Positions 26,059-37,759 of a DNA stretch of 37,759 nt are shown one piece after another. The translations under genes and the position numbers were made by a program. Where the stretch lies: the NCBI GenBank assembly GCA_002790095.1, contig PFUL01000005.1:1-37759 (forward strand). The letters are read 5' to 3'. This DNA comes from Elusimicrobia bacterium CG_4_9_14_3_um_filter_62_55. GTDB lineage: Bacteria > Elusimicrobiota > Elusimicrobia > UBA1565. Position 1 is the stretch's first letter, and every line of letters starts with the position of its first letter. Below the pieces are notes generated by a model. It saw only the letters and a list, made by a program, of their open reading frames with translations, did no database searches and was not told the origin of the DNA.

Positions 26059-29000
26059 ATGAAAAACAGACATCACCGCTGGATCAGGGAGGTTCTCCGA
26101 CGAACCCTATCGACGGCCTTGGTGTTTTCCCTGCTGGTGACCCAGCAGGGTTTTCTCGTTTTAGAGGCATTCGCCGCGAACGTGGTCGGCCAGACCGTGG
26201 TTCGAACCTCCGGGGGGAGCGTCGTCGGAAATTTCCCCGGGGCGCCGGGACAAAATCTAGCGCCCCTTTCCCTCCTGACGGGAGGGTCCCCGTCCTTGCA
26301 AGGAGCCCTGCCCGAAACGGCGGGGCTCTTCTCTTTGCCCCCGGCCGCCGGAACGTCGGCCGCCGCTCAGGCAGCGGCTTCCGCCGCCGGACCCGTCCGC
26401 GTCCCCGTTTTGACTCCGGCCGTTGAGCCGAAAACCCCCGCGGCGTTCGCAGCCCAGGCGGCCGCCCCTTCGGCGCTGCGCACGGCGCCCGCCGTCGCTT
26501 CGCCGGTCGCCGCGCCGAGCGTCGCGCACGCCGCGAACGAACAGGATCCGGGGGGCGTCGCCGGCTTGAACCGTCTAGCGCGCGCGTCGGCTGTCCCCGG
26601 CATCGGCGCCTTGAACCGCTTTTTCGATTCCTCCCGGTCGCGCCGGGAAAGCGCCTCCATCCCAACGAACGCCGGCGATCGTTCGACGGCGCGCCGCCCG
26701 GCGTTGGAACGTCCGGCCGCCGGTAACGGCCTCCGCTTCTTCCTCGTCCGCGAAGGCGAGGCGCCGCTCGTCGCCGACGGACGCAGCTTGCGGGAGATGC
26801 TGGCGGCCGATCCCGCTTTGCTTGAGGAACTCAACGGTTCGGGACGCGTCCGGATCGTCACCGACAACAACCCCTCCGGAAACGGTCTCGCGAAGGAGAA
26901 CGTCGCCGCGGTCGAGGCGCTTCTGCGTTCGGTCGGCGTGAACGCCCGCAGCGAGAGCGAGTCGGTTTCGATCGATTGGAAAGGCGGGCGCGAGAAGGCC
27001 GACGGTCCCGCCCATTCGAAGGAAGGCGTCGGTTCCACGAAGGAGGCGGGGGACCTGACCCGGAAGTGGATCATCGGCCCTATCGCCGGAATTTTCCGGG
27101 AGATCAAGTTTCTCGGCCGCACGCTGGCGGCGTCGTACGCCCCGCCGTTGTGGAGCGAGGTCCTCGGCGGCTTTGTGTCGAAGTCGGCGCCGCTGGCGTT
27201 CTCGGCGGCGACATACTGGGCGGTGATCGGACCGTCGCACCCGTGGCTGCTCGGGGGGGCGATCGGGATCAGCCTGTTCCTCGAGGTGTTCCATGGAATT
27301 TTCCTGAACACTTGGAACGAGTTCCAGAATAATTTGAAGAAACTGCGCGGGATGGGCTACCAGATCGGCTTCACCTGGGCCTATATGCAGAGTTTCGGCG
27401 CCGCGCTGCGCACGCTGTCGTGGGCCGCCGCGCCGGGCAAGACGGTTCCCGTCTGGTCGCCGGTGTACTGGAAGGACTTGATCGTGATGAGCGTTCTCGG
27501 CACGTTCTTCGGCACGCTCGGCATTAACGGGCTCAACGCGCTTTACGAAAAGGGCCGCATCCGGCGCTGGCAGCGCTCCGCGATCCAGCAGGTGCGCGAT
27601 CTGCTGATGCTCGCGGCCGGGCCGTTGTTCGCGACCGGTTCGATGACTTTGTTCTGGGCGGTGTTCGGGACGTCGCAGGCCATCGATTTCACGATCTATA
27701 TGCTCGGCACGCGCGCCAAGCGGCGCACGGTGCTCTACGCGGCTTCGGCGGAGGCGTCGCAAACCGCCGAGTTCTCCAGCAAGTTTCCGGTCGAAGATCA
27801 GCGCGGCAAGCCCGGCCCGCTTAAGCAGGCCTGGCAGGGGATCGTCGAGGGCCCGTTCGGCCGCGCCGGCCGCTGGATCGGGCGTCTGTTCCGCCGCGGT
27901 CCTCCCGCCGCCCGCCCTCCGGTCAACGGCGCGGACGCGCCTCGGGCCCCTCCCGCGCGCGCTGCGAAGCGAGCCCCCGATTCCCTCTCCGAAGTAGATC
28001 TCCGACTCGACCCCGAACGAAAATACCACCCCTCCCCCGAAGACTGGCGCGATGAACTCTTTTACCTTATCATGGTGGATCGCTTCGCGAAAGGCGAGAC
28101 GGGCCGGCCCATCGGCGACCCGGCCGAGGGCGGAACGCGCCACGGCGGTGATCTCAATGGAATTATCGAGAAGCTCGACTACCTGCAGAAGGCGGGCGTG
28201 ACCACCTTGGTGATGACCCCCGTGACGCATTCCTTGCCCGAAGCGTATCACGGCTACGCGACGATGCATTTCCTCGACATCGACCCGCATTTGGGCACCG
28301 TTGAGGATTTTAAGCGGCTGATCGCCCAGGCGCACAAGCGCGGCATTCGCGTCCTGATGGATTTGGTCGTCAATCATACCGGACCGGTGTTCGACTACAA
28401 AGACGGCGACGCGGACGGCACGCCGTGGATGGGGAGGCAGAAGGAGACGGTTTGGAAAGAAGCGCTTCGTCCGAGCGAACTCGCCAAAGACGAGCACTTC
28501 ACGCGGATGGGGAAAATCCGGGATTGGAACGACTCCGGTCAGTCGCGCCGCGGGGATTTTCCGCCGAATTACCGGCACGTTGCGACCGACCGCCCCGAGA
28601 CTCGGCGGCTGATGATCGATATCGCGAAGTACTGGATGAAGGAAGCCGACATCGACGGCTTCCGGCTCGACGCGATTCGGCACGTGGCAGCCGATTTCTG
28701 GCCGCACTTCATGCGCGAGGTCCGCGGGTACGCGAAAGAAATGGGCAAGGAGAACTTCCTGCTGCTCGGCGAGAACTCCACCGGCGTCGACGCGGAGATC
28801 CGGGCGGACATTGACGCGCAATTCGACACGCTCTACAACTACCCCGCGTATCGCCGGGAAAACTACGCGCTGCACGGCGCGGCGCCGACGCGGATGCTCG
28901 AAGACAGCCTCCACCGCACGCGCCAGGCGTTGGGCGACGCGGCCGGCCGCCTGCTGCGATTTATCGATCTGCACGACACCTATCGTTTTCTGCGCACTAA

Positions 29001-29583
29001 GGAGCCGGTCGGGGCGCTGCACGCGGCTCTCGCGTACCTGATGTTCTCTACCGGAATCCCGTTGGTGTACTACGGGACCGAACAGGCGTTCCGTCAGGAC
29101 GTGCAGTCGCTCGACCCGGAAGGCCCGCATCTGCCGGCCGATCCCCGCAACCGCGAGGACATGTTCGCGGACGGACAATTTAAGTCGGACAGTTCGGCCG
29201 GGGATAAGTTCGACGAAACCTCCCCGACCTTCCGGCATCTGCGCCGGTACGCGGTGCTGCGCAAAGCCTACGCCCCGCTGCGCCGCGGCGGGCAGTTTGT
29301 CCGCTGGTCCGATCCGTCGGGGGCCGGGATCTACGCATTCAGCCGGATCTACGAAGGCGAGGAAGTCTTGGTCGTGATGAACACCGCCCGTCAGGCCCGG
29401 GAGGCGACGATGTGGGTGGATTCCGGCCTGACGCCCGCGGGGACGACGCTGACCGACGCGCTCGATCCGCATGAGACGGTCGAGACCTTCGCTCCGGAGG
29501 GCGGCGGCTCGAAGGCGACGGTCGGCGTGCCCGGACTCGGGGTGCGGGTGTTCGTCCGCAAACTCGCGGGGACCGATGGATAA
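26059..29583 (+). CDS. protein A: membrane domain fused to GH13 alpha-amylase-type domain
   Basis: A 1174-aa protein. Order: leader at 1-41 (basic, then T-A-L-V-F-S-L-L-V-T-Q-Q, ending E-A-F-A-A); an Ala/Pro/Gly-rich segment at about 45-220; a small alpha/beta region at about 224-306; about 5-6 membrane segments at about 373-550; a basic Pro-rich linker at about 600-645; and a full GH13 domain at about 655-1174. GH13 residues present: D768 and N772-H773 (D-L-V-V-N-H), R869 and nucleophile D871 (G-F-R-L-D-A), acid/base E905 (L-L-G-E-N), H972-D973 (L-H-D). It should cleave or transfer alpha-1,4-glucans; the exact product is unknown. With an exported N-terminus and an even number of later helices the GH13 domain would be periplasmic. 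It overlaps gene B by 8 bp. The membrane part resembles that of protein C. Confidence 0.88.
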   Translation: MKNRHHRWIREVLRRTLSTALVFSLLVTQQGFLVLEAFAANVVGQTVVRTSGGSVVGNFPGAPGQNLAPLSLLTGGSPSLQGALPETAGLFSLPPAAGTSAAAQAAASAAGPVRVPVLTPAVEPKTPAAFAAQAAAPSALRTAPAVASPVAAPSVAHAANEQDPGGVAGLNRLARASAVPGIGALNRFFDSSRSRRESASIPTNAGDRSTARRPALERPAAGNGLRFFLVREGEAPLVADGRSLREMLAADPALLEELNGSGRVRIVTDNNPSGNGLAKENVAAVEALLRSVGVNARSESESVSIDWKGGREKADGPAHSKEGVGSTKEAGDLTRKWIIGPIAGIFREIKFLGRTLAASYAPPLWSEVLGGFVSKSAPLAFSAATYWAVIGPSHPWLLGGAIGISLFLEVFHGIFLNTWNEFQNNLKKLRGMGYQIGFTWAYMQSFGAALRTLSWAAAPGKTVPVWSPVYWKDLIVMSVLGTFFGTLGINGLNALYEKGRIRRWQRSAIQQVRDLLMLAAGPLFATGSMTLFWAVFGTSQAIDFTIYMLGTRAKRRTVLYAASAEASQTAEFSSKFPVEDQRGKPGPLKQAWQGIVEGPFGRAGRWIGRLFRRGPPAARPPVNGADAPRAPPARAAKRAPDSLSEVDLRLDPERKYHPSPEDWRDELFYLIMVDRFAKGETGRPIGDPAEGGTRHGGDLNGIIEKLDYLQKAGVTTLVMTPVTHSLPEAYHGYATMHFLDIDPHLGTVEDFKRLIAQAHKRGIRVLMDLVVNHTGPVFDYKDGDADGTPWMGRQKETVWKEALRPSELAKDEHFTRMGKIRDWNDSGQSRRGDFPPNYRHVATDRPETRRLMIDIAKYWMKEADIDGFRLDAIRHVAADFWPHFMREVRGYAKEMGKENFLLLGENSTGVDAEIRADIDAQFDTLYNYPAYRRENYALHGAAPTRMLEDSLHRTRQALGDAAGRLLRFIDLHDTYRFLRTKEPVGALHAALAYLMFSTGIPLVYYGTEQAFRQDVQSLDPEGPHLPADPRNREDMFADGQFKSDSSAGDKFDETSPTFRHLRRYAVLRKAYAPLRRGGQFVRWSDPSGAGIYAFSRIYEGEEVLVVMNTARQAREATMWVDSGLTPAGTTLTDALDPHETVETFAPEGGGSKATVGVPGLGVRVFVRKLAGTDG

Positions 29584-32011
29584 GCCGCTCGAATCCTGGC
29601 GGGACAAGGTGATGTACCTGGCGATGATCGATCGTTTCCATAACGGCGACGAGAGCAACGACGATTTCGGAAGGGGGGAATTCAATCCGAAGGACGACGA
29701 CTGCTTCCAGGGCGGCGACCTGAAGGGCATCGAGAAGAAGCTTCCGCATTTGGAGAAACTCGGCATCGACGCGCTGTGGATCACTCCCCCCGTTCATAAC
29801 CAGTGGATCAACCCCTACATTCCGGTACGCGGCTACCACGGCTACTGGGCGTACGATTTTACCGCGGTGGATCCGCATTTCGGCGACGAAGAGGACTACC
29901 GCCGCCTCGTTGAGAAGGCGCATGAGCGCGGGATGAAGGTGATCCAGGACATCGTCGTCAACCACACCGGAAACTTTTTCACGGTCGACGAAGGGAAGTT
30001 TGACTCGAAACGGCCGGAGCGCGGCTGGAAAGAAGCGAAGGGTTCCTACCCGGCGCGGGCGCCGAAGGATCCCGTCTTCGGGATGAACAATCCCAACCGC
30101 AAGGCGGATCGCGAGGCCGCGGTCTATAATTTCACGCCGAACATCGCGGACTTCAAGAGCCGCGAACAGACGCTCCAGTGGGCGCTCGGCGATCTCGACG
30201 ACATCAATCTCGAGAGTCCCGCCGCGCTCGAGCGGATGAAGGCGATTTACCGCTCTTGGATCGACCGCGTCGGCATCGACGGCTACCGCGTGGATACCGT
30301 CTACTATACGCCCGAACGCTTTTACGAAAATTTCCTGCACGACCGCCGTTCCAGCGGCCCGGGGGTCAAACAGCATGCTGCGGCGCGCGGCAAGGACGAC
30401 TTTCTAGTGTTCGGCGAGGTCTGGAGCTACGATTACGACGCCATCGGCCGCTACCTCGAGGGCCCCGCCGGCCCGCGGCTGGACTCGGCGATCGATCTCC
30501 CGCTGCAGGAATTGCTGGGAGACGTATTCTTCAAGGGCGCCCCGACGCGCGTGCTGGAGGGTGCGCTGCGCGCGCGGCGGAAAAACCGGGGCCTGTGGGT
30601 CAATTTCCTCGACAACCACGATACGGAGCGCATCGCCGCGCGCGCGTCGCGCGAGGCCGTCCGCCAGTCCTTGGTCGCGCTCTTTACGCTGCCCGGCATT
30701 CCCTGCGTTTACTACGGGACCGAGGCGGGCCTGCGCGGCGCACGCCAGAACATGTTCGCGCGGGCTTGCTGGAACGAGCGTTCGCCCGAATTCCAATTTT
30801 TGAAATCGCTGATCCGGCTGCGCAAGGCGACTCCTGCTCTCCGGCGCGGGACGTTGACGGTCGACCGTACCGCCTATGCCGCCGGCGTGCTCGCCTACTC
30901 GATGGCATACGAGGACGACACGGTGAAAATCGTCTTCAACACCTCGCCCGACGCGATGGCGTACGATCCGGGGCCCGGCGATCCGCACCGCGAAATCCTG
31001 CTTTCCTCCGCCGGCAAGCATCGCGTTCGCCGTCCGATGATATTGCCGCCCCGATCGTACTTGATCTATCGCCAGACGGCGGGGGCGGCGAAATCCTCCG
31101 GAGAGGAGCGCCCGGTCGTGAGACTTTCGGCTCCGGCCAAGAAGACGGTGCGCGGGCCCGCGCCGATCCGCTTCAGCGTGGATCCGAAGGCCGACGTGCG
31201 CAGGATTTACCTCCTTTCGGACGGCAACGTGGACGCCGGCGTCGAAGTCCCCGAGCCGCGTTCCGGCCGCTTCACCGTCGAAACCGCGGCGTTGGGCAAC
31301 GGGCCGCACGAACTGCGCCTGCTGGCGAAGACGTGCGCGGGCCGTTTGTCTCTGTCGGAACCCGCCGTGATCACGGTGCGCAACCCGTTCGAAAAGATCG
31401 CGGCCGCGGTCGTGCTCGAGAAGGGCAGCGCGGGGATCGGCTGCGAACTGCATGCCCCGGGCGACCCGAGCTACGGGGAGCAGATGTCGATGCGCGGGGT
31501 CGAGGCCGCGAGCAACGGCCGGGATTTGAAGCTGACGCTGAAGATGGGCTGCGTCACCAGCGACTGGAATCCGCCGCACGGCTACGATCACGCCTATTTC
31601 ACCGTTTTGTTCGACCTGCCCGGCGTGAAGGGCAAGCGCTTCTGCCCGAAACTGCGCTACCGCGTTCCCAATTTTGAGTTCAACGCGGGATTCCTGCTGT
31701 TCGGCTGGGGGGCTCGTTCGTTCTCCGCTTCAGACTCGACGCCGGAAACCTACGGTTCGCCGCTTTCCGGCGAAGCCGAGCAGAGGGCCGACCCGCGCCG
31801 CTCGACGGTGTCGTTCACCTTCCCGGGACGGGCCTTCAAGGGCCTGCGCTCCTTCGAGGGAGTCAAGATTTTTATTTCGACGTGGGACGGCTACCTCGGG
31901 GAGTTCCGCGGGATTTCAAACAAGAAGGAGGATTGGGAGTTCTACACGCTGGACCGGAAGGCTCCGGAGGAACTCCCCCGAATTTTCGACCATGCGCTCA
32001 TCTCCCTGTGA
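29576..32011 (+). CDS. protein B: GH13 amylase with Ig-like and C-terminal beta domains, no signal peptide
   Basis: An 811-aa protein. The catalytic domain spans about 8-410: Y-L-A-M-I-D-R-F at 14-21, D125 and N129-H130 (D-I-V-V-N-H), R238 and nucleophile D240 (G-Y-R-V-D), E281 (F-G-E-V-W), N347-H348-D349. A beta domain C follows to about 500, an Ig-like segment at about 513-603, and a C-terminal beta-rich domain at about 605-800. The last resembles DOMON/glucodextranase-C-type domains (D-H-A-Y-F-T-V-L-F-D, I-F-I-S-T-W-D). The start at 29576 overlaps the end of gene A (ATGGATAA). No signal peptide or membrane helix is seen, so it is predicted cytoplasmic, unlike A and D. Four bases separate it from gene C. 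Confidence 0.93.
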   Translation: MDKPLESWRDKVMYLAMIDRFHNGDESNDDFGRGEFNPKDDDCFQGGDLKGIEKKLPHLEKLGIDALWITPPVHNQWINPYIPVRGYHGYWAYDFTAVDPHFGDEEDYRRLVEKAHERGMKVIQDIVVNHTGNFFTVDEGKFDSKRPERGWKEAKGSYPARAPKDPVFGMNNPNRKADREAAVYNFTPNIADFKSREQTLQWALGDLDDINLESPAALERMKAIYRSWIDRVGIDGYRVDTVYYTPERFYENFLHDRRSSGPGVKQHAAARGKDDFLVFGEVWSYDYDAIGRYLEGPAGPRLDSAIDLPLQELLGDVFFKGAPTRVLEGALRARRKNRGLWVNFLDNHDTERIAARASREAVRQSLVALFTLPGIPCVYYGTEAGLRGARQNMFARACWNERSPEFQFLKSLIRLRKATPALRRGTLTVDRTAYAAGVLAYSMAYEDDTVKIVFNTSPDAMAYDPGPGDPHREILLSSAGKHRVRRPMILPPRSYLIYRQTAGAAKSSGEERPVVRLSAPAKKTVRGPAPIRFSVDPKADVRRIYLLSDGNVDAGVEVPEPRSGRFTVETAALGNGPHELRLLAKTCAGRLSLSEPAVITVRNPFEKIAAAVVLEKGSAGIGCELHAPGDPSYGEQMSMRGVEAASNGRDLKLTLKMGCVTSDWNPPHGYDHAYFTVLFDLPGVKGKRFCPKLRYRVPNFEFNAGFLLFGWGARSFSASDSTPETYGSPLSGEAEQRADPRRSTVSFTFPGRAFKGLRSFEGVKIFISTWDGYLGEFRGISNKKEDWEFYTLDRKAPEELPRIFDHALISL

Positions 32012-32015
32012 ACCT

Positions 32016-33278
32016 ATGCCCAACAACGAAACCGACGCTTCCGTGAAACCCGCCTTCGACGCCGACACCGTGGTCGTCCTCGCGCTCGACGTGAAATCTG
32101 AGACCGCTGAGAGCGGTTTCGAGCGCCGCTATTACGCCTGCCGCGGAACGCGTCTGCCCGACGGGGCTCCTGTTGAGCCGTCGCTCGGCGCCTCGAACGC
32201 GCGCGAACTGGCCCAGAAGGGAGCGTTCACCGAGTTCAAGGGGCGGATCGTATTCGCCGTCTATCCGACGCGTACCTACTCCGAAGGCTTCGGAGGAGGG
32301 ATGTTCACCGAGATCGCGCCCGAGGACCGCAGCGTCATCCGCGGTCTTAAGCGCCGTTTCCCGGGGCGCGTCGATTGCGTGAAGATCCCGCTGTCGGCGA
32401 CCTCCCTGTTCGAGTCGATCGAGGATTATTTCAGCGGCGTCGAGGAAAAAGCACGCTACTCGGAGGAACGCGCCGCTTCCGCGGGAAAAGCGGAGAAGAG
32501 GCGGATCGCCGAGGCCTCGCCCGCTCCTGTCGCGTTCGATGCGGGCTACATCCGCAACATGGGCGATATTTTCAAGAGCTGCATCACCAAGCCCAACCGC
32601 CAGGACTACATGTGGCTGGTCACGAAAACCTTTACGCTCAATCTCGCGATCCGGCTGTTCTTCGTCGTGCGAAGCGTCAACGCCGGTGAACTCGCGGTGT
32701 CGCGCGCCGTGATTTCGACGAGTTGGTACCAGCTGCAGGACGCGGTGTTCACCGTGTTCGGCCAGACCTACATGAAATTCCTTGGGAAGATGACGCCGAT
32801 GGTGAAGCTGCGCAACGCGGCCGTCGGGGATTTCGTGTTCGTCTACATTCAGCTTTGCTCCATGGAATTCATCAACCGCTTGGTGCTCGGTCCGTTGGGA
32901 ATGAACCCGCTGGTGTACACCCTTCATGGGATGGGCCTGATTTTCGCGAACATCCTTCAGGGTATGATCTCGGGCGGTCCGATCATTCCGGCCGTGAACA
33001 AGATGCGCAAGGTCGGCGTGATCAGCCACTCGACGATGATGCACTTCTACCAGCTCGCGAGCCTGACGATGCATTTCGGGCTGTTCGCCACCTTCGGCTT
33101 CCAACAGTTCTACGCGATCCTGACCGGAGCGGTGCTCGTACTCGCTTGGGGCTCGTACCTGATCTTCTCGACAATGTTTGAGGATCCGGCGTTCGACTTG
33201 ATGCAGGACGAACAGGCTCTCTTGCTGGTCGATGCCTTCGCCGGACGCTGCTTTGCGGTGGGAGGCGGCCACGCCTAA
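32016..33278 (+). CDS. protein C: polytopic membrane protein related to the membrane domain of A
   Basis: A 420-aa protein of unknown family. Residues 1-170 look soluble (strand V-V-V-L-A-L-D-V, then F-K-G-R-I-V-F-A-V-Y-P-T-R-T-Y) and end in a charged coil. Residues about 200-390 hold about 5-6 membrane segments. Landmarks are shared with protein A at similar spacing: V-Y-I-Q (276-279) against A-Y-M-Q (441-444) in A, N-P-L-V-Y against S-P-V-Y, a K/R-x-G-x-I step, and L-F-A-T (356-359) against L-F-A-T (523-526). About 80 residues separate the first and last landmark in both. I infer a diverged common domain, possibly a transport or scaffold unit. The start follows the B stop by four bases with no clear Shine-Dalgarno site. 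The 3' end overlaps gene D by 47 bp. Confidence 0.85.
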   Translation: MPNNETDASVKPAFDADTVVVLALDVKSETAESGFERRYYACRGTRLPDGAPVEPSLGASNARELAQKGAFTEFKGRIVFAVYPTRTYSEGFGGGMFTEIAPEDRSVIRGLKRRFPGRVDCVKIPLSATSLFESIEDYFSGVEEKARYSEERAASAGKAEKRRIAEASPAPVAFDAGYIRNMGDIFKSCITKPNRQDYMWLVTKTFTLNLAIRLFFVVRSVNAGELAVSRAVISTSWYQLQDAVFTVFGQTYMKFLGKMTPMVKLRNAAVGDFVFVYIQLCSMEFINRLVLGPLGMNPLVYTLHGMGLIFANILQGMISGGPIIPAVNKMRKVGVISHSTMMHFYQLASLTMHFGLFATFGFQQFYAILTGAVLVLAWGSYLIFSTMFEDPAFDLMQDEQALLLVDAFAGRCFAVGGGHA

Positions 33279-36200
33279 AACCGCGGTCTTTCTCGCCGCC
33301 TGTCTGATCCACTCGCAGGCCGCTCTCACGCTGCAAGGCGTCGCACACGCCGCGCCGGTGCGCGCGTTCGCGTCCGCCCCGGCGAGCGTGTCCGTGCAGG
33401 TCGCCGCGCCCCATGCGTTGTTCTCCCCGACCGCGGCTCCCTCGCTCGGCGCCGCCGTCGTCCCGTCGCTGGCCCCGGGTCTGCCGTCGCTCGCGATTCC
33501 CGCGCTCGGGGCGGTCCCGGGTGTTTCCGTCGAGGCCTCTCCCGCCGCGGCGTCGCGCGCCGCTCCGCCTTCCGCCGCCGCCGCCGCCGCGCCTTCGGCT
33601 GCCGCCGCGGCCGCTTTCGTGAAATCCGCTTCGCCGCTCCGGGGCGGAGCCTCGGCGCGGGAAGCCGAATCAAGGCCGGCGCCGGACGCGAAAACCACGC
33701 TCGGGGCGTTGAACGAGCGGATTAAAAAGAGCTCCCCGCCCCGAGCGTTGTCTTTGTTCTTTGACGGGGGGTCGCGCCGCGACGACGGTCTTGTTTCGGC
33801 GAACGCGGCCGACGCCGCCGGTCTCTCGGCCGCCGGTCTCTCGGCCCGCCCGGCAGCGGAACTGTCGCGCCTTCGCGAACTCAAGCAGGTGCTCGGAGAC
33901 GGGACGCACACGCCCGAGGGCTGGATTTCCCATTTCGGCTTCCGAAATCCCGACGGATCCACGCGGATGTCCTACACGGCGGGTCTGGAAGGATTCCTTT
34001 TCACGAAGCTCGAACAGGAACGCGCGCACGGCGAAGCCCACGCGTTGGGTCAACTCGCAGATTATTTCTCCTACCTCGACGCGCTTTTGGCCCCGATGGA
34101 GTGGACCCGCGCCGCGCGCCGGGACCTGCGCTCGCTGCGCCACCTCGCGATCGATCCCGCCGCGAAGAACGCCCGCCTCAACGAAATGCTCCGTGCGCTC
34201 GCGCAGGGTTGGCGCGCGGAACTTCTGAAGATCGCTCCGGCTTCCTGGGGCCGCGACGCCGCGATGTACATGATCCTCGCGCGGGCCTACAATCGGATGA
34301 AGCCCGGGAAGAATTTCTTCGATTCGATCGACGACGCCGAACTCGAGCGCATCGCCTCCGAGACCGGCGCGAATACGTTGTGGATTCTGGATATGTTCGA
34401 GATCGGGGAGATTCGGCGCTGGGGAACCGGCGGCGGCTCGCCTTATGCGATCAAGGGCTATCACGTAAAAGAGGAACTCGGCGGCGACGCCGCGCTTAAG
34501 CGCCTGGTGGACCGCGCGCACAAGAAGGGCCTGCGCGTCGTAACCGACTACATTCCGAACCATACCTCGCTCGACAGCGCGATGATCAACGAACGCCCGG
34601 AGGGCTTCGTCCACTTGCTCCCTCCGCAGCCGGCGCCGGGAGAGACCTTCGAGGTTTATCGTGACCGGATCATGGCCGACGCCCCGCGCGCGCCGTGGGG
34701 CGAGTCGATGTACTACCTCGTCAAGACTCCGGCCTATCCGGAGAACGGCAAGCGCGTCGAGAAGTACATCCTCGTCCATCATCCCTATCAGGGAGGCGGC
34801 TATCCGATTCTTTGGGTGGACATGGCGCAGATCGACTACAGCCGGGTCGAGGCCCGCGAGTACCGTTTAAACGAGGCGAAGGAATTGTTCCGGCGCACGG
34901 GCATAGACGGCGTCCGCCGCGACATGGCCTATTTCGTCCTCAACGAACGCTTTTTCCGCCATTGGCTGGGTACGCTAAAATGGGAGCGCGATTTGGCCCG
35001 GGGCTGGGTGCGCGAACAACTTGCGAAAACAGTCTCCGAGATGGAGGGTCGGCGCGAAAAAGCCGGGAAGCGGGAATACCTCGACGAACTGATGGAGGCC
35101 GTGCGTTCGGTGAACCCGGCCGCGTTTCATTTCGACGAAGCCTACGAGGAATTCGACGCGTTAAGCCGGACCGGCTCCTACGCCCGCTACAACAAGACCG
35201 GGCTGTTCGACGCCCTCGGCGAGCGCAACGCGGCCTGGGTGCGCGGCGCGCTCAAGGAGGTCGCCTTCCGCAAGTGGCAGACCGCCGCCTCCGGGCTGGT
35301 CAACTTCCCGATCTCCCACGACGCAGACGACACGCACGGCGGACGAGGCTACGCGGTGGATCGCTACGGCCCCGTTCTCGAAGCGGTGCTGACGCTGACG
35401 CTCGGTCTTCGGCCGAGCCTGATCTATAACGGGATCGAGCAGGGCATGTCTCAGCGCGAATTGCTGATCTCCGATCAGTTCGGCCGCTCGAAGGATCTCA
35501 ATAAGCCGATCCCCTTCGACATCCCGGTCAAGATCGATTGGAGCAAGCAGAACCCCGCGCGTAAGGCGTTCTTTAAAACGCTGGCGGCGTTCACGAATAA
35601 GTGGAAGACCCTTTTGACCGACGGGGTGATGGACGTTCTCGACGCCTACGGCGAGACGCCTTTGGCCGCCTACACGGCGGCGAAGGGAGACGGTCCGGCC
35701 GTGCTGGTCGCCGCCAATCTCGCCGAGCACGAGGCGTGGGGGCATTTCCGCATGGACGGCGCGGCCGCGAAGCTTCTCGGGGCGTTCGAACCGAAAGAAG
35801 GCAAGAGCTATCGGTTCACCGACCGGGCCGCCGGCGGCAAGTCCTACGCGTACTCCGGCGCGCGCCTGATCGCCGAGGGCATCTACTTCAAACTGGGCGC
35901 CGGCAAGGTGCATCTGTTTGAGATCGAGGAATTCGACACGCCGCCCGGGGAATCGGCGGCCGCGAGCGCGCGAACCTTTCGACAGCCCTCCGCCGCGAAC
36001 GAAGCCGACGCCGCGATCAATGCCGCGGACGCGCTGGCCGTGCGCCTTTCCATCGAGGCTGCCGAGGCCCAAAGACCGCAGCCGCGCAGGGAGACCTTCT
36101 GGCGCGCGAGTTGGGACACGTGGACGAAGCGGTTGACGAACTCGGCGTTTCTCGCGTTTCTGCCGCTGCAGGTTCCGCAGATCGTCGCGAACTTCGGCTT

Positions 36201-37014
36201 CATCTTCGCCGGGACGCTGAACCCGATCTCGATTCTGCCCTGGATGGGCTATTCGACGGGAATATTGGCGAACATGATTCTGCTTTCCTACTTCGTCTCG
36301 AAAAAGGAGAAGGGCGCGGCGCTGGTGCAGGCGGTGGGCGTCCTCAGCAGCGCGCTCGTCGTCGGACAGATTTTCTACGCGGGGTTTATGCCGGCGGCCG
36401 CGTTCTGGGCGGTCGCCGCCGCGATCCTGGCAGGGCTGGGACTCAACGCGCTGCATTATCGCGGAGTCGTCAATGCGAAGCTCTGGGAAGGCTGGAAAGA
36501 ATTCGTCGGGATGGCCGGACTCGCGACGCTGCCGCTCGTTTTCAGCGCGACCTTCCTCGCGAAGGTGGCCTACTGGCCGGCCGCCTTGGCGTTTGGACTT
36601 GGGGGGCTTTACCTCGCGCTGCGCAAGGCGGGCCGCCTTCCGAAGAAATTCGAGGGATTGTGGATGAAGGCCTCGGCCTGGACGGCGACCCTCTTGTTCA
36701 TGTTCGGCCCGCTCGCGCAGATTTCCGCGAATCTGGCCGACCCCGCGAACATGGCGGGACTCTCGCTGTTGACCCTATTGCTCGCCACGCTCGGCAACGG
36801 AATGATGATCCCCCGGGCGGTGCACACGAAGGACTGGATTTGGTTCAGCGGATCGGCCTGGGCCGTTTCCCTCGGCGGGATCGGGGTGATGGCCACGATG
36901 TTCGCCTACGGCTTCCTGTCCCCGTTGTTCTTCTTCACGTCCGCCGCCGTCATCGCCGCCGTCCTCGGCGGCTCCTTCCTCGCCTCCCACCGCGCCGGAA
37001 AGGCCGAAAAGTAA
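33232..37014 (+). CDS. protein D: GH13 domain fused to a PQ-loop/SWEET-like membrane domain
   Basis: A 1260-aa protein. Order: leader (about 16-41, T-A-V-F-L-A-A-C-L-I to A-H-A-A); an Ala/Pro-rich linker at 42-150; a helical region at about 205-335; GH13 at about 340-900; a linker; then about 9-10 membrane helices at about 970-1250. GH13 residues: D439, N443-H444, R562 and nucleophile D564 (V-R-R-D-M), E636 (F-D-E-A-Y), H696-D697. Motifs II-IV are unusual in their flanking residues, so the specificity may differ from ordinary amylase. The membrane part has P-Q-I-V-A-N at 982-987 and a second copy L-A-Q-I-S-A-N at 1161-1167 followed by A-G-L-S and L-G-N-G-M-M-I-P-R. These are PQ-loop repeat features, as in SWEET/SemiSWEET sugar carriers. 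A leader places GH13 outside. The ATG lies within gene C; no better start is seen. Confidence 0.9.
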   Translation: MPSPDAALRWEAATPKTAVFLAACLIHSQAALTLQGVAHAAPVRAFASAPASVSVQVAAPHALFSPTAAPSLGAAVVPSLAPGLPSLAIPALGAVPGVSVEASPAAASRAAPPSAAAAAAPSAAAAAAFVKSASPLRGGASAREAESRPAPDAKTTLGALNERIKKSSPPRALSLFFDGGSRRDDGLVSANAADAAGLSAAGLSARPAAELSRLRELKQVLGDGTHTPEGWISHFGFRNPDGSTRMSYTAGLEGFLFTKLEQERAHGEAHALGQLADYFSYLDALLAPMEWTRAARRDLRSLRHLAIDPAAKNARLNEMLRALAQGWRAELLKIAPASWGRDAAMYMILARAYNRMKPGKNFFDSIDDAELERIASETGANTLWILDMFEIGEIRRWGTGGGSPYAIKGYHVKEELGGDAALKRLVDRAHKKGLRVVTDYIPNHTSLDSAMINERPEGFVHLLPPQPAPGETFEVYRDRIMADAPRAPWGESMYYLVKTPAYPENGKRVEKYILVHHPYQGGGYPILWVDMAQIDYSRVEAREYRLNEAKELFRRTGIDGVRRDMAYFVLNERFFRHWLGTLKWERDLARGWVREQLAKTVSEMEGRREKAGKREYLDELMEAVRSVNPAAFHFDEAYEEFDALSRTGSYARYNKTGLFDALGERNAAWVRGALKEVAFRKWQTAASGLVNFPISHDADDTHGGRGYAVDRYGPVLEAVLTLTLGLRPSLIYNGIEQGMSQRELLISDQFGRSKDLNKPIPFDIPVKIDWSKQNPARKAFFKTLAAFTNKWKTLLTDGVMDVLDAYGETPLAAYTAAKGDGPAVLVAANLAEHEAWGHFRMDGAAAKLLGAFEPKEGKSYRFTDRAAGGKSYAYSGARLIAEGIYFKLGAGKVHLFEIEEFDTPPGESAAASARTFRQPSAANEADAAINAADALAVRLSIEAAEAQRPQPRRETFWRASWDTWTKRLTNSAFLAFLPLQVPQIVANFGFIFAGTLNPISILPWMGYSTGILANMILLSYFVSKKEKGAALVQAVGVLSSALVVGQIFYAGFMPAAAFWAVAAAILAGLGLNALHYRGVVNAKLWEGWKEFVGMAGLATLPLVFSATFLAKVAYWPAALAFGLGGLYLALRKAGRLPKKFEGLWMKASAWTATLLFMFGPLAQISANLADPANMAGLSLLTLLLATLGNGMMIPRAVHTKDWIWFSGSAWAVSLGGIGVMATMFAYGFLSPLFFFTSAAVIAAVLGGSFLASHRAGKAEK

Positions 37015-37027
37015 TCTAAAGAAGTTC

Positions 37028-37759
37028 GGGTCTTCTGCATTTCGAGTGGGTAGATTTTCATGATTTCAGATGGGCGGGAGCATGCACGGGAGGACCTTGA
37101 GCCTCAGGTACTCCTCGTCCCGCAGACCATAGGTGCGCCGTTGGATGACACGGATCTTGTTGTTCAAGCCCTCGACGAACCCCAAGGCGACCTTGTTCTC
37201 CGGCATGCAGTAGGCCGCGATCCCATCCCAGTGCCTGTCGATCATTCGGGCGAACTTTTCGTAGGGCTTCAGGCGCTGCCACTTCAGCGAGTCGCGCCAG
37301 TTCTCGAAGAAGCGCCGGGCCCAGCCTTCTCGCGTGTAGTCCCAGAGCTTGCCGAACTCCTCCTTGAGGACGTAGGCGGTGTTCAGGCGTTTGTTGGCTT
37401 TGAGCAAGAGCTTCAAGCTCCGGCGACCGTCCGGCTTCAGGTTCTGACGGTGCGAAAGCAGGGTGTATTTCTGGCCCTTGATGAAGCGTCGGTCCTTGCC
37501 CGTGAGCCTGTAGTACTCGGTCTTGCGGACCTTGTCGAGCGCCTCGCCAAGATGACGCATCACGTGGAACTTGTCGAAGAGAATGGCGGCCTGCGGCGCG
37601 TTCTCCTTGGTCGACTTTCGGAAAGGCTTCCACATATCCATGACGGCCAGCCGTATCTTCTTGCTCTTCGTCGGGCCGAGCCACTTGTAGAACTCGTCCA
37701 TGCTCTCTTGCGAACGGTCCGTACCGCCGAACCAGATCGGCCGATGCCTTTCCAGATCG
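37028..37759 (-). mobile_element. ISL3-family insertion sequence, one end
   Basis: The element enters from the right edge. Its near end should lie just beyond the transposase stop. GGGTCTTCTGCATTTCGAG begins at 37028 and has the G-rich plus TCTTC character of ISL3-type terminal repeats. The partner repeat and the target duplication would be outside the window, so the exact boundary is unproven. It begins only 14 bases after the stop of protein D. Confidence 0.6.
37066..37759 (-). CDS. ISL3-family transposase, C-terminal part
   Basis: The frame stays open to the window edge; 230 residues of the C-terminal part are visible. The start lies outside: an internal ATG at 37701 is preceded in frame by R-P-I-W-F-G-G-T-D-R-S, part of the same domain. 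Seen: the DDE-type catalytic strand A-V-M-D-M-W-K-P-F, then D-K-F-H-V-M-R-H-L, the K-Y-T-L-L-S region, and near the end G-F-V-E-G-L-N-N-K-I-R-V-I-Q-R-R-T-Y-G, all typical of the ISL3 (DDE_Tnp_ISL3) family. It cuts and pastes its own element. The visible part looks intact. Confidence 0.93.
   Translation of the reverse strand, partial: DLERHRPIWFGGTDRSQESMDEFYKWLGPTKSKKIRLAVMDMWKPFRKSTKENAPQAAILFDKFHVMRHLGEALDKVRKTEYYRLTGKDRRFIKGQKYTLLSHRQNLKPDGRRSLKLLLKANKRLNTAYVLKEEFGKLWDYTREGWARRFFENWRDSLKWQRLKPYEKFARMIDRHWDGIAAYCMPENKVALGFVEGLNNKIRVIQRRTYGLRDEEYLRLKVLPCMLPPI

Follow-up and report, generated by a model that had tools for sequence, protein, structure and literature searches.

PQ-loop and SWEET proteins have been studied mainly as stand-alone carriers, and SWEETs are built of seven helices (3+1+3) that form two parallel triple-helix bundles, with the N-terminus outside and the C-terminus inside. 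A locus of Elusimicrobia bacterium CG_4_9_14_3_um_filter_62_55 raises the question of what a domain of this kind might do when it shares a polypeptide with a glycoside hydrolase. The window analysed here is a stretch of 37,759 nucleotides representing an entire contig (C165) of a 4.3 Mb genome in 202 contigs, and it encodes a protein, here called D, for which the original prediction proposed that a single chain both cuts glucan and offers a sugar pore. On balance, and with reservations, we favour the reading that D is a GH13 alpha-glucan enzyme permanently tied to the cytoplasmic membrane through a divergent double PQ-loop domain, and that it works within a maltodextrin-use system.

The predicted union of GH13 with a polytopic domain at the C-terminus, in a single frame, is borne out, the frame being free of stops throughout its length (Table 1). 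Its ATG lies 47 nt inside the end of gene C and a TTG at 33253 provides an alternative start; the signal-like segment is followed by an Ala/Pro-rich linker up to about residue 200, and the mostly helical domain beyond this linker is the best-modelled part of a weak model. A chimera or assembly artefact was rejected as the source of the fusion, since the same fusion recurs in separate genomes.

Table 1. Protein D, its parts and the genes that precede it (window positions)
Feature	Position	Strand	Remarks
Neighbour A	26059..29583	+	Starts like a signal peptide; linker and hydrophobic stretch (about residues 340-580) precede GH13
Neighbour B	29576..32011	+	GH13 with DUF3459 and Glucodextran_C; lacks a signal peptide with M36 taken as start
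Neighbour C	32013..33278	+	Hydrophobic C-terminal half; no family assignment
Protein D, GH13 - double PQ-loop-like fusion	33232..37014	+	1260 aa, no internal stop
Signal-peptide-like hydrophobic segment, residues 17-41	33280..33354	+	Hydropathy; homologues carry clear signal peptides
N-terminal domain of the D GH13 family, mostly helical, residues 201-335	33832..34236	+	Kept in relatives
GH13 catalytic barrel and C-terminal beta domain, residues 336-905	34237..35946	+	PF00128, PDB sequence hits, motif alignment
C-terminal membrane domain, residues 961-1255	36112..36996	+	10 predicted helices
PQ-loop-like repeat 1, helices 1-3, residues 968-1053	36133..36390	+	PQIVAN 982-987; hhalign
Linker helices 4-6, residues 1054-1131	36391..36624	+	Helices 5-6 absent in compact relative L085
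PQ-loop-like repeat 2, helices 7-9, residues 1147-1226	36670..36909	+	LAQISAN 1161-1167; hhalign
Helix 10, residues 1229-1250	36916..36981	+	Predicted

GH13 is the sole Pfam family recognised in D (PF00128, residues 405-780, E = 1.4e-9, score 38.1 bits with the cut-off at 22). The residues originally put forward as catalytic, D564, E636 and D697, are correctly placed in the motifs R-R-D-M-A-Y, D-E-A-Y and H-D, and a motif alignment indicates that they are kept in intact relatives; by sequence, D is therefore a GH13 protein with a conserved catalytic triad. With the GH13 alpha-amylase family (PF00128), including the PDB entries 3dhu and 4gkl that its GH13 part matches by sequence, D shares the barrel motifs and the triad, although overall similarity is low and D adds the N-terminal domain, the Ala/Pro linker and the C-terminal membrane domain. 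The AlphaFold model of the GH13 part, made from four alignment rows, reached a pLDDT of 55.7, and Foldseek matched this low-confidence model to GH13 folds (trehalose synthase, GlgE and amylases) with TM-scores near 0.2, in weak agreement with the assignment. D would be an alpha-amylase-type enzyme that is putatively active on alpha-glucan.

The membrane domain received no call in Pfam and NCBIfam searches, and PF04193 had no match above its curated cut-off in D or anywhere in its genome; in two relatives, L084 (0.0081) and L086 (0.059), its matches were sub-threshold. The D-type membrane profile found no match among solved chains, nor did the domain find one among plasmid records, and a single-sequence AlphaFold model (pLDDT 54.8, pTM 0.29) gave no meaningful PDB match in Foldseek. 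The PQ-like motifs nevertheless sit exactly where the original prediction placed them, and the PQ-loop-like character that it ascribed to the domain was upheld when an alignment drawn from 12 Elusimicrobia genomes was compared by hhalign with a reference set made up of genuine PQ-loop repeats of this phylum and SemiSWEETs. These E-values are pairwise and come from shallow alignments, with controls as the main safeguard: residues 960-1080 matched residues 1142-1258 at 1.2e-5 (reversed controls at least 0.5), repeats 1 and 2 matched the PQ-loop repeats at 1.9e-7 and 9.7e-5 (reversed controls 0.04 or worse), intermediates matched repeats 1 and 2 at 7e-10 and 4.4e-9, and the PQ-loop set matched the intermediates at 2e-9, the families thus being bridged in both directions. 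That the resemblance is a chance product of hydrophobic composition, and the domain a member of some unrelated polytopic family, might be argued from the absence of a Pfam gathering match and from the comparison of the repeat profile with SemiSWEETs alone, which was not significant (hhalign E = 0.12). Such an origin is very improbable given the consistent repeat register, reversed controls at 0.04 or above, a best E-value of 0.016 for ten unrelated membrane families of the same genomes, and the intermediates that link the families from either side. Homology to the PQ-loop superfamily is accordingly well supported at the sequence level, because the E-values hold while the reversed and unrelated controls fail.

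In its make-up, the C-terminal part of D is, as judged from these profiles, a divergent double PQ-loop domain, for which family-averaged hydropathy predicts 10 helices against the seven of SWEET. It shares with the PQ-loop/MtN3-like clan (PF04193 and PF03083, comprising SWEET, SemiSWEET and cystinosin-type proteins) two three-helix repeats, a PQ...N or PxxQ...N pattern in the helix that opens each repeat, and an odd number of linking helices, on account of which the helix bundles should be parallel. It differs from that clan in its fusion to GH13, its 10 predicted helices, its position below the Pfam cut-off, its predicted inverted orientation, and the P-L-A-Q that stands in place of P-Q in repeat 2. 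Within the family alignment, P, Q, N and G are invariant, the PQ dipeptide being invariant in repeat 1 and replaced by PxxQ in repeat 2. The two repeats first envisaged stand, and the domain of D has about 10 predicted helices, read as 3+3+3+1, rather than a bare 3+1+3. Formal membership of the PQ-loop or SWEET families is not well supported, since the Pfam cut-off is missed and the helix count is unlike that of SWEET. A compact version, reading 3+1+3+1, is encoded as a stand-alone D-type membrane domain without helices 5-6 at L085:5322-6485.

The same architecture was found fused in other proteins, across genera and families. With gene calls in relatives taken as open reading frames rather than annotated genes, a GH13-membrane fusion in one frame occurs in eight other Elusimicrobia genomes (G111, G157, G093, G230, G231, G232, G207 and G337), at loci L036, L037, L039, L084, L087, L088, L089 and L108, the last of which (in G337) ends at a contig end; G233 carries a further copy in which GH13 is split by a frameshift. 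The two halves are separate genes with a 4 nt overlap in G125 and adjacent genes in G198 (split-gene loci L038 and L041), the membrane domain stands alone in G202, and several relatives possess a D-type GH13 without it. Manufacture of the halves as separate proteins, which had been named as evidence against the fusion, thus applies to G125 and G198 only, against one frame in the eight other genomes. Among the 235 genomes of the class, the membrane-domain profile had matches in 17 at E <= 0.001, some of them weak. In a tree of the GH13 parts, D groups with subtilase-fused GH13 domains that have no membrane domain (L033, L034; support 100/99), and because the tree joins it to such relatives, the link between GH13 and membrane domain was presumably made or broken more than once. 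A single ancient fusion inherited unchanged is not favoured, the GH13 of D lying apart from the other fused GH13 domains. The subtilase proteins are very large (2200-2600 aa; L033:2283-10103, L041:3487-10764, L040:5196-11873) and combine subtilase S8 and HEAT repeats with a D-family GH13 at the C-terminus.

Further enzymes are joined to PQ-loop-type domains in the phylum. These include another GH13 clade (L098, L099); a GH14 beta-amylase (E = 3e-135) with a C-terminal PQ-loop-type membrane domain (L079:6515-9274, minus strand); and very long proteins in which a single PQ-loop-type repeat is joined to a remote GH13 (L106, L107). At L080:4416-7274, L081:3385-6243 (minus strand), L090:110-2800 (minus strand) and L092:5221-8058, PQ-loop repeats are followed in one frame by a uridine-kinase/PRK-like domain, and three of these four also contain an adenylate-kinase-like domain; the PQ-loops of L080, L081 and L090 are recognised by Pfam, and those of L092 fall just under the cut-off. 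The part N-terminal to the PQ-loop-type domain resembles a HAD-type phosphatase by eye, with no Pfam call, in L083 and L091. From these sequences, the phylum appears to join enzymes to PQ-loop domains habitually. Among the papers available, a literature search returned none that brings Elusimicrobia together with PQ-loop proteins, or SemiSWEET together with both a fusion and a glycoside hydrolase, and in the accessible portions of two surveys (PMC5972207 and one other) fusions are mentioned only among SWEET or PQ-loop units.

On the contig, D comes after two other GH13 genes and gene C; the order B-C is kept in L040, and A-B-C in G097, where it lies downstream of a subtilase-GH13 gene. The membrane regions of A and C showed no significant similarity to PQ-loop domains or to each other, and that of A was unrelated to the D membrane domain in the comparison made. 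In relatives, the fusion is associated with starch-use genes: MalEFGK-type ABC importer genes directly follow it in L037 and L084, in L036 it adjoins MalE-MalF and a permease, the split halves in L038 lie near a MalK-type ATPase and a permease, GH15 neighbours the fusion of L039, and GH77 adjoins L098. These neighbouring genes point to alpha-glucan use. The context (solute-binding protein, two permeases and ATPase) is shared with MalEFGK maltodextrin systems that operate with surface amylases, from which D differs in that the amylase bears its own polytopic domain and in that the malEFG orthologues of its genome are on a separate contig. At L036:1153-3396, a solute-binding protein and an ABC permease of MalE-MalF type occupy one 747-aa frame. 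The contig ends just after D with an ISL3-type transposase fragment (37066-37758, minus strand), and a stretch of 25 nt (37028-37052) is found again close to the start of contig C42, so that the downstream context of D was probably lost at the insertion element.

Because ABC importer genes adjoin the fusion in several relatives, uptake need not proceed via the PQ-loop domain. On the favoured reading of a membrane-held enzyme in a maltodextrin-use system, the bulk importer partnering D would be MalEFGK-like, as in relatives, the GH13 half would most likely act on alpha-glucan, and the PQ-loop domain would most likely anchor D and bind or pass small products. A tentative alternative, to be taken seriously though we doubt it, is that the domain moves nothing and serves only as an anchor or scaffold placing GH13 beside the importer. 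The complete or partial importer genes beside the fused or split genes of L036, L037, L038 and L084 are in keeping with this, as are the very different soluble domains joined to PQ-loop-type domains, which suggest a general membrane module, and the relatives whose GH13 lacks a membrane domain. Against it, both repeats are kept, and the linking helices are odd in number even in the compact form, which would keep the bundles parallel, as in a transporter. Moreover, the membrane domain and the enzyme are conserved to a similar degree (identity of GH13 versus membrane domain 44 vs 47% for L036, 46 vs 51% for L037 and 41 vs 37% for L039), which together with the invariant P, Q, N and G of the membrane domain argues that this domain is more than a passive tether.

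The opposite possibility, that small sugars freed outside by the enzyme are then carried in by the PQ-loop domain attached to it, draws on the PQ-loop fold homology and on the three sorts of alpha-glucan enzyme that have PQ-loop-type domains joined to them; in other organisms, according to one survey, SemiSWEETs cluster with alpha-glucosidases (PMC5972207). This vectorial arrangement is rather unlikely, with importer genes adjoining the fusion and an orientation predicted to be inverted relative to SWEETs. The cut-plus-pore proposal accordingly survives in part: PQ-loop homology and a conserved fusion are in its favour, and the same importer genes and inverted charge orientation speak against a simple exported enzyme with a pore.

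The orientation rests on the distribution of charge, K/R counts averaging 18.3 on one side of the membrane domain and 1.1 on the other, which places the N-flank and the C-tail both inside. All three PQ-loop groups have the N-flank inside by this positive-inside pattern; the other two possess an extra front helix and reach the same N-in prediction in canonical orientation. Should the charge rule hold, D would have its PQ helices opposite to those of canonical SWEETs. The clear signal peptides of fused homologues predict instead that the N-flank is outside, and between GH13 and the first membrane helix no further helix was apparent. The charge-based placement thus conflicts with the signal peptide and allows two readings of where the enzyme works: the enzyme half may sit in the cytoplasm, or D may be an exception to the charge rule. 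Were the enzyme half to face the cytoplasm, the signal-like start would not lead to export and D would act on imported or stored glucan. Kinase-like domains need a cytoplasmic location, and they follow the PQ-loop domain in the related fusions; neighbour B, too, seems to be without a signal peptide, and the charge pattern agrees. We consider this placement unlikely, given the signal peptides of the fused homologues and the occurrence of the same GH13 family within large, signal-bearing subtilase proteins. The confidences in the favoured reading and its rivals overlap, anchor, carrier and cytoplasmic-face placement being sub-cases or neighbours of one picture.

A bolder, speculative reading, which we regard as improbable, makes D an inverted SWEET-superfamily carrier combined with an alpha-glucan hydrolase into a one-chain hydrolyse-and-transport machine, of a type made repeatedly in Elusimicrobia with GH13 clades, GH14, HAD-like domains and kinases. 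If the charge-based topology is true, D may exemplify a PQ-loop bundle in inverted orientation. The D-type fusions offer a natural test of the coupling of hydrolysis and transport within one chain, and the repeated joining of PQ-loop domains to enzymes in one phylum may provide functional clues for orphan PQ-loop proteins.
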